The notes beneath the pieces were generated by a model. It searched no databases, was not told the origin of the DNA, and saw only the letters and a program-made list of their open reading frames with translations. Shown here piece by piece: positions 31,849 to 59,578 of a stretch of DNA of 64,000 nt. Position 1 is the stretch's first letter, and each line of letters begins with the position of its first letter. This DNA is from Uliginosibacterium aquaticum (GTDB taxonomy: Bacteria > Pseudomonadota > Gammaproteobacteria > Burkholderiales > Rhodocyclaceae): contig NZ_JABCSC020000001.1 in NCBI RefSeq assembly GCF_012972705.2, positions 62,001 to 126,000 of the forward strand, in the 5' to 3' direction. A program made the position numbers and the translations under genes.

Positions 31849-31858
31849 TCAGTCCCTT

Positions 31859-31957
31859 CCGAGGAGCGCTGCGAGACTGCCGGGTTTTTCCCGCAATCCC
31901 AGGCTCGGAACCTGCCGCCTCTCTTTGGCGCAGGCCAGATTCAACGGCGCTCACCGC
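31859..31957 (+). ncRNA. S-adenosylhomocysteine (SAH) riboswitch upstream of metH
   Basis: The leader has the conserved SAH aptamer core: CCGAGGAGCGCTGC at the 5' side, CCAGGCTCGG in the middle and AACGGCGCTCACC at the 3' side. CCGAG (31859-31863) pairs with CTCGG (31914-31918), and GAGCGC (31864-31869) pairs with GCGCTC (31947-31952) as the second helix or pseudoknot. SAH riboswitches turn on SAH recycling genes when SAH builds up, which fits methionine synthase downstream. Confidence 0.92.
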
Positions 31958-31990
31958 TTCGTGCAGAACTCGTGCGGATTGCCGGTGAGC
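31949..31990 (+). promoter_or_regulatory. Candidate expression platform of the SAH riboswitch
   Basis: GCTCACCG (31949-31956) can pair perfectly with CGGTGAGC (31983-31990). This uses the same bases as the ligand-stabilised helix, so the two structures exclude each other. A further 7-bp hairpin (32023-32037) sits directly before the GGAGAG ribosome-binding site at 32039-32044. No T-tract is seen, so control may be at translation or Rho-dependent. Confidence 0.55.
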
Positions 31991-32050: not shown

Positions 32051-35752
<3,702 letters not shown>

Positions 35753-43174: not shown

Positions 43175-43939
43175 TCAGCCGCCGTGCCGCCGCTCGATGA
43201 CCTCGCCGTTCTTTCTACGCCAGTCGTAAATCTGCCAGCGCAGTGGCTCCGTTGTGAGCGGCACTTCGGCTTTCTCCAGCACCTGCCCGTTGATGATCAC
43301 GGTGATCCAGCTCTTCTGTGGCGGGGTGTCGACGCGGCTGGGCAGGAGGCTCATCTCCTGGGACTGCTTGGCGCGCGTGATGCCGTCGTAGGTGATGCTG
43401 CGCGAGCCGTCCCACGGCGACTTCATGTGCGAGCCATCGCGTTTGCTGACGATGAACAGCGGCAGCATGACTTTCTTGCCATCGCGCTGGCCCTTGAGGC
43501 CGGGGATCGGGGCTTTCTCGAACTCCCATTCCACCCAGGCCATGAGGTCGTCCTGATCCTTGGTGCCAAGGAAAGAGGGCGGCAGGGCGAGTTGCAGCTC
43601 GAAGAGGCAGGTCTGCCCGCGTGAGGCTTCGCCCACAATCAGCGCCTTGCCGGGCAGGAAGAGCCCGCGCCGGTCGGGGCGGTCATCGGGGGTGACGCGC
43701 TCGGGGAACACCGGCGGCCAGTCGCAACGGAAGTTGAAGCCGTAGTAGCGCGGCGGAGCGTCGAGGCTGGCGCAGTAGTTGGGGTCGCGCCCGAAGCACA
43801 GGATGCGCTGCATCTTCTGTGAGCGCGGGCTGTTGGTGTCGAAGACGCGGCCGCTATCGTATTCCTCTTCCGGCACCAGGGTGAGTGCGTGGCTGTGGCT
43901 GGCGAGCAGCAAGAGGGCCGCAAGCAGGGCGCGGATCAT
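43175..43939 (-). CDS. Exported protein of unknown function (third gene of operon)
   Basis: This 254-residue protein has a signal peptide (MIRALLAALLLLASHSHA). The mature part contains five cysteines, Tyr/Trp-rich segments (RYYGFNFRCDWPPVFPE) and a C-terminal strand-rich region (SWITVIINGQVLEKAEVPL). No domain is recognised. It starts at ATG 43939 overlapping the previous gene by ATGA, so its synthesis depends on that gene. The predicted location is periplasm or outer surface. Confidence 0.7.
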   Translation of the reverse strand: MIRALLAALLLLASHSHALTLVPEEEYDSGRVFDTNSPRSQKMQRILCFGRDPNYCASLDAPPRYYGFNFRCDWPPVFPERVTPDDRPDRRGLFLPGKALIVGEASRGQTCLFELQLALPPSFLGTKDQDDLMAWVEWEFEKAPIPGLKGQRDGKKVMLPLFIVSKRDGSHMKSPWDGSRSITYDGITRAKQSQEMSLLPSRVDTPPQKSWITVIINGQVLEKAEVPLTTEPLRWQIYDWRRKNGEVIERRHGG

Positions 43940-44829
43940 GGTTTCACCTCGAATCGGGTGCGGCTGAGGAGTTTGCCGGCGTACCACCATTCGAAGGTGT
44001 AGAAGCCGGGTGGATCCTTGGGGCCGATGCGCCAGCTCTGGCTGAGAGTGCGGTAGTACTCGCCGACGTTGAAATTGACGCTGTGGCGGAAGATGTAGGA
44101 GGTCACCTCGCGCTGGCTGCGCTGCCCCCAGAGCTTGACCACGTAGCGTGCGCCGCAGTCGCCGCCGCCCTTGTAGTGATGGCTGTTGGGAATCTTGCCG
44201 GTGGTGTGCGCCGGCACCAGCGCTGCGGTTTCGCCCATGCACTGGCGCCATTCGACGCCGCGCATGCTCGGGCGCGGGCGGTAGATCACGGTGTCGGACG
44301 GCACCACCACGCGCTGTTGCAGGTTGAGGAAACCACCGCCGCGCTGGCGGGCAATGGCCAGCGTGCTGTTGTACTGCTCGCCAGCCTTCAGCACCGGGAT
44401 GCTGTCGAGCGGCTGCACGCGGTATTCGGTTTCGCCGCGCGCGTTGTCGCTCACCAATGCATGGCTGGCGCCGAGCAGGAAGAAGTTGGGCTGGGTGAGA
44501 TCGTCGTTCGAATCGCCGCGCCGATTGGCGAGACGCTCGGCGGCGAGCGTTTCCGGCCGCGAGGGGTCGAAGAAGCGCAGGGCGACGGGGAAGTGCGTGA
44601 AGGGCTGGTCGTAGTCCAGCGGCAACTGTGTGCACAGCTTGCTCATGCTGCTGAGCGGCGGGTCGCACAGGCGTTCATTGAAAATTACGCCGGGCGCTTC
44701 AAAGGCTTCGAGGTACTGGACCTCCTTTTCGCTCAGCTCACGATGCGGCAGGGTTTGCGCCAGGGCCGCGGGCGATGCGGCCACCGCGATGCAGCAGGCC
44801 AGCAGGCGAGCGGCATCAGGGGCGCGCAC
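43936..44829 (-). CDS. Exported protein of unknown function (second gene of operon)
   Basis: This 297-residue protein has a signal peptide ending SPAALAQ and a mature part with HRELSEKEVQYLEAF, a mid region YRVQPLDSIPVLKAGEQYNS, four or more cysteines and a C-terminal WRIGPKDPPGFYTFEWWYAGK. No domain is recognised. The start is a GTG at 44829 that overlaps the end of the repeat-protein gene by 14 bp; it has GGAG nine bases upstream and yields the first credible signal peptide in this frame. Confidence 0.65.
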   Translation of the reverse strand: MRAPDAARLLACCIAVAASPAALAQTLPHRELSEKEVQYLEAFEAPGVIFNERLCDPPLSSMSKLCTQLPLDYDQPFTHFPVALRFFDPSRPETLAAERLANRRGDSNDDLTQPNFFLLGASHALVSDNARGETEYRVQPLDSIPVLKAGEQYNSTLAIARQRGGGFLNLQQRVVVPSDTVIYRPRPSMRGVEWRQCMGETAALVPAHTTGKIPNSHHYKGGGDCGARYVVKLWGQRSQREVTSYIFRHSVNFNVGEYYRTLSQSWRIGPKDPPGFYTFEWWYAGKLLSRTRFEVKP

Positions 44830-45412
44830 AGTCGGCGTCTCCGTAAGTGCAAAAGGTCGAGGGGCTGAGTTGCCGGCTCTGCTCGACTTGGGTGGCACGC
44901 GTGCGGGCGGCGTTGCTGTCGCCAGGCGCTGGCGGGTTGGGCGAGGGCGCAGCGGGGGAGTCGGACGTGAGGCGGCCGGTGTAGCGCCCCTGCGCGTCGT
45001 ATTGCCGGCCATCGGCATCGACGCGGCCCTGATAGACGCCTTGTGCGCTGTAGATGCGTCCGCTGGCATCGATGCGGCCGGTGTGCACGCCCTGTGCGTC
45101 GTAGAAGCGGCCGGCAGCATCGGTCTTGCCTATGTAGCGGCCCTGGCTGTCGTACATGCGACCACTCTGGAGATCAGTGCGCCCCTGATAGCGCCCTTGG
45201 CTGTCGTAACGGCGGCCGTCGGCATCGATGCGGCCGGTATGGCGCCCTTGGCTGTCGTACTGCCGGGCGGGGGCGGGGCGGGCCTGTGCGCTGCCCGCGC
45301 GCGTGCCCTTGGCGACGGCGGGCACGGCATGCAGCGCCAGTAGCGGGCAAAGCAGGGCAAGCAGGACAGCAAGGCAGCGTGACGCAGTCGATCGGATGGC
45401 GGGCGGATTCAT
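44816..45412 (-). CDS. Exported repeat protein (six YD.QGRY.GR repeats)
   Basis: This 198-residue protein has a signal peptide (residues 1-32, ending near AVPAVAK). The middle is built of six tandem units of about 17-18 residues with the pattern Y-[DS]-[SA]-Q-G-[RV]-[YH]-x-G-[RK]-x-D-x-x-G-R, from about residue 48 to 150. Each unit could form a beta-hairpin, as in MORN- or YD-like repeats, but none of these families is matched exactly. A Pro/Ser linker and a short tail with two cysteines follow. The ATG at 45412 was chosen for the signal peptide. Confidence 0.75.
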   Translation of the reverse strand: MNPPAIRSTASRCLAVLLALLCPLLALHAVPAVAKGTRAGSAQARPAPARQYDSQGRHTGRIDADGRRYDSQGRYQGRTDLQSGRMYDSQGRYIGKTDAAGRFYDAQGVHTGRIDASGRIYSAQGVYQGRVDADGRQYDAQGRYTGRLTSDSPAAPSPNPPAPGDSNAARTRATQVEQSRQLSPSTFCTYGDADCARP

Positions 45413-45549
45413 GCAGGCAGCGTTCCTCACAGGCGGTTGGAGACCCCTCCGCACTGCTGGAAACTACGACCGCTGAAGGCGTACGCTTGATGGCATGGGT
45501 GTAAAAAAAGGATGCAGCGTGCGCCCGACGACAAGCCCGTTTTTTCTGA

Positions 45550-45690
45550 GAAGCTGTTCCCGATCTTACTGCGAGGCCGTGATCAGGGCTCATGCGCAGC
45601 TCGGAATCCTCATTGATCAACATAAACTCCGGTTCCTGTGCAGCTCTTCCCTTGCTGAACGGCCTCTCGCTACAGATCGTGATCAGCTTC
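45550..45690. mobile_element. MITE-like element, copy 1 (141 bp)
   Basis: This 141-bp sequence has 17-bp terminal inverted repeats (15 of 17 match; outer GAAGCTG/CAGCTTC) and is flanked by the direct repeat TGA on both sides (45547-45549 and 45691-45693). An equal-length copy with 18 mismatches lies at 58160-58300. It encodes nothing and contains an inner inverted pair (GCGAGGCCGT with ACGGCCTCTCGC). Confidence 0.8.
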
Positions 45691-45701
45691 TGAGGGCCGA
45701 C

Positions 45702-45900
45702 TCAGACGAGATTGCAGGCGTAGTCTTCGAGCTGCTGGAAGCAGATTCCCCAGCCTTCGTGAAAGCCCATCTCTTCGCGCTGGCGCTTCGCTTCCGGCGT
45801 GCCGTGCATCAGGTGAGCGGTGCAGCCGGCCATGGGCGTGCAGCTCGATTCCACGGCCCATATCGGTATCGAGCCGATCAGCGCGCTGAGCGCCGAGGGT
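45702..45900 (-). pseudogene. Remnant of an SRPBCC/AHSA1-like protein
   Basis: On the minus strand the C-terminal end of a protein is readable, HGTPEAKRQREEMGFHEGWG followed by a QLE segment, ending in TGA at 45702-45704. This resembles the end of SRPBCC (activator of Hsp90 ATPase-like) proteins. Upstream in the same frame the similarity stops within about 50 residues and there is no start, so only a fragment remains. The MITE lies 11 bp beyond the stop. Confidence 0.45.
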
Positions 45901-58150: not shown

Positions 58151-58159
58151 GCGCCCTTA

Positions 58160-58300
58160 GAGGCTGTTCATGATCTTACTGCGAGGCCGTGATCGGGGCT
58201 CATGCGCTGCTCGGAATCCTCATTTATCAACATAAACTCCGGTTCCTGCGCTGCTCTTCACCCCGCTGACGGCCTCTCGCTACAGATCGTGAGCAGCCTC
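58160..58300. mobile_element. MITE-like element, copy 2 (141 bp)
   Basis: Equal in length to the copy at 45550-45690. It has 17-bp terminal inverted repeats (15 of 17 match; outer GAGGCTG/CAGCCTC) and direct repeats TTA on both sides (58157-58159 and 58301-58303). The right-hand TTA is the TAA stop codon of hemL read on the other strand. It fills the gap between the convergent EamA gene and hemL. Confidence 0.85.
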
Positions 58301-59578
58301 TTACAGCGCGCAAAAGGCGGCGTCAGCAGCCGTAAGCGTCGCGGCGATATCTGCCTCGCTGTGCGCGGCCGACACGAAGCCGGCTTCGAAGGCTGAGGGC
58401 GCGAGGTAGTGGCCAGCGTCCAGCATCAGGTGGAAGAAGCGATTGAAGCGCTCGCGATCCGAAGCCATTACGTCCGCAAAGCTCTGCGGCACGTCCTGGC
58501 TGAAATACAGTCCGAACATCGCGCCGACGGCCTGGGCCGAGAAGGCGAGGCCGTGCTTGGCGGCTGCTGCAGCCATGCCATCGGCGAACGCGCTGGTACG
58601 TGCAGTGAGTGTCTCGTAGAAACCGGGCTGGCGGATCAGCTTCAGCGTGGCGAGGCCCGCGGCGACCGCGACCGGGCTGCCGGAGAGCGTGCCGGCCTGA
58701 TATACCGTGCCGAGCGGGGCGATGCATTCCATGATCTCGCGCTTGCCGCCGAAGGCCCCGACCGGCATGCCGCCGCCGATGATCTTGCCCAGCGTGGTGA
58801 GGTCCGGCGTGATCTTGTACAAGCCCTGCACGCCTTGCAGGCCGACACGGAAACCGGTCATCACCTCATCGAAGATCAGCACTGCGCCATGCTCGGTGCA
58901 CAGCGCGCGCAGACGATCCATGTATTCCTGCGAAGGGCGCACGAGGTTCATGTTGCCGGCCACCGGTTCGATGATTACGCAGGCGATGTCCTTGCCGCGC
59001 GTGGCGAAACACTCTTCCAGCGCCGGGATGCTGTTGTAGTCCAGCACCAGCGTGTGCTTGGCGAAGTCGGCCGGTACGCCGCCCGAGGATGGATTGCCGA
59101 AGGTCAGCAGGCCGGAACCAGCTTTCACCAGCAGGCTGTCGGCGTGGCCGTGGTAGCAGCCTTCGAACTTGACGATCGCGTCGCGCCCGGTGAAGCCACG
59201 GGCCAACCGGATCGCGCTCATCGTGGCTTCGGTGCCGGAGGACACCAGACGTACCATTTCGATGGAAGGCAGAAGCTCGATCAGCAGCTCGGCCATCTCG
59301 ATTTCGCCCTCGGTCGGCGCACCAAAGGAGAGACCATTTATCGCTGCGCGCTGCACGGCTTCGATCACTTCCGGATGGGCGTGACCCAGGATCGCCGGGC
59401 CCCAGGAGCCGACGTAATCGGTGTACTGCTTGCCGTCGGCATCCCACACATACGCGCCCTGCGCGCGGGCCAGAAAGCGCGGCGTGCCGCCGACCGAGCG
59501 GAAGGCGCGGACGGGTGAGTTCACGCCACCGGGAATGCTGCGCTGGGCGCGTTCGAAGAGTTCGGCGTTCTTTGACAT
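58301..59578 (-). CDS. hemL: Glutamate-1-semialdehyde 2,1-aminomutase
   Basis: This 425-residue PLP enzyme converts glutamate 1-semialdehyde to 5-aminolevulinate. Hallmarks are [40 protein letters not shown] and the PLP lysine in [18 protein letters not shown]. The stop codon is part of the 3-bp duplication made by the adjacent MITE. It is followed in genomic order by thiE and thiD, a common betaproteobacterial grouping. Confidence 0.97.

Follow-up and report, generated by a model that had tools for sequence, protein, structure and literature searches.

Three consecutive genes on the minus strand of the window (the whole 64,000-nucleotide stretch of DNA analysed here), designated A, B and C, probably constitute a real and uncharacterised cell-envelope module. 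Gene A encodes a repeat protein assigned by profile matches to the beta-flower family, and B and C look like two undescribed protein families. Our main reading, to which a probability of roughly one half is given, is that the trio is a rare, self-contained operon whose products are exported by Sec and form a disulfide-bonded complex of the envelope. The probabilities attached to this reading and to the alternatives discussed below overlap, and their total may differ from one. The features of the locus are as follows.

44816-45412, minus strand: gene A, 198 aa, ATG start; exported repeat protein with a Pro-rich tail carrying two Cys
44963-45262, minus strand: repeat part of gene A, six units of 17-18 aa at residues 51-150
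43936-44829, minus strand: gene B, 297 aa, GTG start preceded by GGAG at about 10 nt; four Cys in the mature protein
43175-43939, minus strand: gene C, 254 aa, ATG start with GAGG upstream; strand-rich, four Cys after the signal peptide

In the translation of the window A shares 14 bp with B, and B shares 4 bp (ATGA) with C, exactly as an earlier note on this DNA had described. The G+C content of the trio at codon positions 1, 2 and 3 is 0.63-0.71, 0.45-0.61 and 0.78-0.88, the third-position values being 0.78 for A, 0.85 for B and 0.88 for C in a window of 64% G+C overall, and this pattern indicates that all three fit real genes. The long antisense frames are of the kind that high G+C commonly generates. 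No sigma-70-like promoter was found upstream of the operon. The N-termini of all three proteins, judged by eye, read as Sec signal peptides with predicted cleavage at ...VPAVA|KG in A (signal peptide at about residues 1-34), ...AALA|Q in B and ...SHA|LT in C. Homologues in another family, described below, also start with signal peptides (A ...AQA|KGG; C ...ALA|LVQ), so that the export signals claimed previously for the three proteins are upheld, and from these N-termini we infer export to the periplasm or the surface. The second and third proteins had also been described as cysteine-bearing, and indeed four Cys are present in mature B and four in mature C, along with two in mature A. These counts are even in all three proteins, which is in line with oxidised extracytoplasmic proteins.

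Within the order, certain but distant homologues of B were found in one other family, where 5 of 11 genomes have them. These five genomes are betaproteobacterial MAGs, referred to here as the lake genomes, their lake origin being read from the isolate names. The trio is adjoining in all five of them (G357, G619, G475, G534 and G591), split over two contigs in G534 and with A lacking its repeat part in G591, where B and C persist as open frames. The co-occurrence of the three genes elsewhere, which the earlier note had set as a test of its proposal, was therefore observed. The lake gene order is B-C-A as against A-B-C in the window, which is a cyclic permutation, and in the lake loci C overlaps B by ATGA and a short beta-flower protein overlaps C. 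The same genes in permuted order with their overlaps kept imply that the linkage survived rearrangement, which argues for a joint function. A search with the C profile gave strong matches in the same six genomes as B (window C was among the sequences that built the profile, which makes its own match a matter of construction) and a chance-level match in one further genome. The coupled exported three-protein unit suggested by the earlier note thus gains from its recurrence in five genomes, from the retained overlaps and from the presence of B and C in the same genomes; an envelope complex or secreted structure, with physical association of A, B and C, is still what we infer.

No convincing matches to B or C were found outside these six genomes. 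B was found only in its own genome among 8 genomes of the genus and 299 of the family, and only in the window genome in a class-wide sample of 143 genomes; C was likewise restricted to its own genome among 250 genomes of the family. Plasmids and viral contigs gave neither B nor C, phages gave neither B nor A, and no fourth gene was found to recur beside the lake trios. Weak matches in L009 and L010 were judged to be chance, as they did not coincide with a B-like gene, and so was that in G361, which lies in a murG-murC-ftsZ division and cell-wall cluster without an exported trio. In addition, the lake trio is present in a MAG labelled Bordetella parapertussis (L023, CAMDXD010000066.1), where B is about 94% identical to the B of the lake betaproteobacterial MAGs, and for this reason the label looks wrong.

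Of 15 dN/dS comparisons between lake genomes over all three genes, 14 fall at 0.14-0.43 and the outlier (0.79) is C in one close pair; values of about 0.3 indicate that in the lake set the genes of the trio are under constraint (purifying selection). These data bear on the rather unlikely alternative that the functional unit is the pair of B and C alone, with A as an accessory or hitch-hiking repeat protein. The loss of the repeat part in G591 with B and C persisting suggests that A may be dispensable, A switches side relative to B-C, and the beta-flower proteins of the order that were inspected outside the trio stand alone, without B or C. However, A-type proteins are rare (Bflower_2 proteins occur in 5 of 150 genomes of the order, and gene A is the only match in its own genome), yet one lies beside B-C as an overlapping neighbour wherever B-C was found, once in truncated form. 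Moreover, A itself is under purifying selection, with a dN/dS of 0.26-0.34 in the lake genomes.

The six units of gene A (QYDSQGRHTGRIDADGR, RYDSQGRYQGRTDLQSGR, MYDSQGRYIGKTDAAGR, FYDAQGVHTGRIDASGR, IYSAQGVYQGRVDADGR and QYDAQGRYTGRLTS) share the core YD[SA]QG[RV][YH]xG[RK], and TRF places the DNA repeat array at 44972-45122. Six units of 17-18 residues had been described as near-identical; their number and length hold, but their pairwise identity is 41-76% (mean 58%). Ten [DNEQS]xxG[RV] turns are spaced alternately by 10 and 7 residues. The count of [DNEQ]xxG motifs (9, plus one SxxG) is not extreme by itself, since shuffles gave a mean of 4.4 and a maximum of 11; it is the regular 10/7 spacing that is. 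Gene A matches Pfam PF21785 (Bflower_2) over residues 52-148 with 39.1 bits (cut-off 38, E 7.5e-10) and PF21784 (Bflower) with 27.6 bits (cut-off 25, E 4e-6), and on these profile matches it is a member of the beta-flower family. Bflower_2 denotes the 5-fold beta-flower, which features a shallow symmetric beta-barrel of 10 strands. In PHROGs, A matched only the unknown family phrog_18536 (E 6.5e-12), and a prophage origin was rejected as this was all that the database gave.

Predicted structures led in 2023 to the description of the beta-flower fold, a shallow barrel whose hairpin petals carry [DNEQ]xxG at their tips. It is reported to have a hydrophobic channel and to resemble the lipid-binding Tubby domain, and lipoprotein signals are present in some members (PMC10584680). 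No experimental function for any beta-flower protein was found in the literature searched. Gene A resembles the family (PF21785/PF21784, clan CL0395) in both models, in its short units with [DNEQ]xxG turns and in being exported, as are many members. The unit number differs between the loci, six in window A and about three in lake A, which falls under the Pfam cut-offs. The coupling of a beta-flower to two orphan exported proteins is not described in the consulted passages of the paper on the fold (PMC10584680).

The earlier note had found no recognised domain in the three proteins and had proposed profile searches against known families. For A that absence did not survive, as Bflower_2, Bflower and YD_repeat_2x all exceed their cut-offs; for B and C it did, since neither matched any family in Pfam, NCBIfam, PHROGs or PADLOC. 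Of the matches to unrelated known families that the note had named as counting against its proposal, only that of A to the beta-flower family was obtained. An anti-phage defence system was considered and rejected, because A, B and C and their lake counterparts had no match in PADLOC at E 0.1. A sequence search of the PDB with the B and C profiles returned chance matches only, mainly nanobodies. The AlphaFold models of B and C were built on five-row alignments and are poor (mean pLDDT of 42 and 48, respectively). Residues 138-297 or so of B were modelled as an Ig-like beta-sandwich, a fold of the seven-strand class, with a pLDDT of about 30-73, mostly 50-70. This region gave a Z of up to 9.1 over 94 residues with the AlkC C-terminal domain and of 7-7.8 with GH3, RbmA and complement domains. 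Over about 90 residues it aligns at Z 7-9 with Ig-like or FN3-like domains (AlkC C-terminal, RbmA, complement MG2, GH3 C-terminal), but it is only 8-17% identical to them, in a low-confidence model and with no match to a sequence family. At the level of this predicted model the Ig-like matches are tied, general and common at such Z, and carry no function. The fold search with the C model gave no match above Z 4.2, though strands are present. An exported orphan of 158 aa in another family of the order (L022, genome G401, 1150-1626) has a C-terminal end that resembles B (DPTGQHQINVFYNGKLIAAFPFEI, 20 bits), and from this similarity it possibly shares the sandwich domain.

Another explanation, which we regard as unlikely, is that A is a YD/RHS-type repeat and not a true beta-flower, the trio then forming a surface structure that binds carbohydrate outside the cell or resembles an adhesin. 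The YDxxGR core of A is like that of the YD repeats (NCBIfam TIGR01643), A scores 26.9 bits against YD_repeat_2x with a cut-off of 15.8, and the Ig-like domain of B matches the biofilm scaffold RbmA and pilins at Z of about 7.5. Against this, A scores below the cut-off of RHS_repeat in Pfam (17.8 against 22 bits) while both beta-flower models pass, and it differs from RHS proteins in its 17-18-residue units, its length of 198 aa and its absence of an RHS core or toxin-tip architecture. Furthermore, no adhesin anchor, usher, sortase or secretion gene was found among the flanking genes examined. A chaperone-usher system was also rejected, as the genes on either side (LysR, carboxymuconolactone decarboxylase, glutaredoxin, Fic) include neither an usher nor a pilin.

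The relationship between the window and the lake proteins is of unequal strength. B and lake B align with an hhalign E of 1.6e-6 over the C-terminal 130 residues, with a HMMER E of 3.6e-7 among the window ORFs when window B was held out of the profile, and with a profile alignment z of 10.3 against shuffles. A and lake A gave a tblastn E of about 1e-13, helped by the repeats. For C and lake C the hhalign E is 0.12 and the z against shuffles 2.3, other window ORFs scoring as high, and HMMER did not detect it. Nevertheless the homology of C with lake C is probable. The two agree in position, in length class and in being coupled to B through ATGA; two Cys of window C align with the two of the lake proteins, and both have an FEKA motif and, near the C-terminus, a P-x-Q...I-x-G...RR block. 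That the two trios are separate systems, with a homologous B, an unrelated C in the same place and a beta-flower that arrived twice, takes its support from the weak statistics for C and is quite improbable in view of these shared features.

The genes flanking the operon are ordinary ones and encode a glutaredoxin, a carboxymuconolactone decarboxylase, LysR, a truncated AHSA1-like frame, Fic, a 2-hydroxyacid dehydrogenase, YebC and EamA, and Fic, YebC and EamA occur together in G004. Apart from short matches in the glutaredoxin region and a dispersed repeat, the region from 40592 to about 46280 is without counterpart in seven other genomes of the genus among the blastn matches listed, which places the operon in an accessory stretch. 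The dispersed repeat lies upstream of the trio.

45546-45695, no strand assigned: dispersed repeat of about 147 bp, about 134 bp upstream of gene A and not part of the operon

A second copy is found in the window at 58156-58301. The repeat has imperfect terminal inverted repeats of about 32 bp (AGAAGCTGTTCACGATCT...TGATCAGCTTCT) and a conserved core, is present in well over 20 copies in its own genome (82-93% identity), is likewise abundant in most of the other genomes of the genus, and has no match in Rfam; it looks like a MITE-type element. It also occurs six times in L068 (NZ_AP026896.1; one copy at 3102800-3102950), a circular record of 4.94 Mb filed as Aeromonas caviae plasmid pKAM479_3, the size of which suggests that it is the chromosome of a co-isolated bacterium under a wrong label. 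Beside the repeat, the short frame at 45702-45854 (minus strand) matches the C-terminal end of AHSA1 (PF08327) just under the cut-off and appears to be a truncated gene. Elsewhere in the window, an SAH riboswitch (RF01057, 53.3 bits) is present at 31855-31959 (plus strand), upstream of a large gene at 32051-35752.

If A-B-C is an operon for an exported envelope complex, B, and probably also C, would end in an Ig-like beta-sandwich acting as a structural or partner-binding scaffold. The leading guess for A is that its beta-flower would bind a hydrophobic or lipid-like envelope ligand; lipid binding is guessed from the resemblance in fold class. The short lake form of A, of about three units, may close the flower as a dimer, which is speculation. 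It is doubtful that the full proposal holds, namely that the operon encodes a new kind of envelope machine, with a beta-flower (Tubby clan) as its lipid-binding module and two Ig-like proteins as dedicated partners of it. If true, it would be the first system for a genetic test of beta-flower fold function. A conserved operon tying a beta-flower to two dedicated exported partners offers a genetic handle on the role of the fold.
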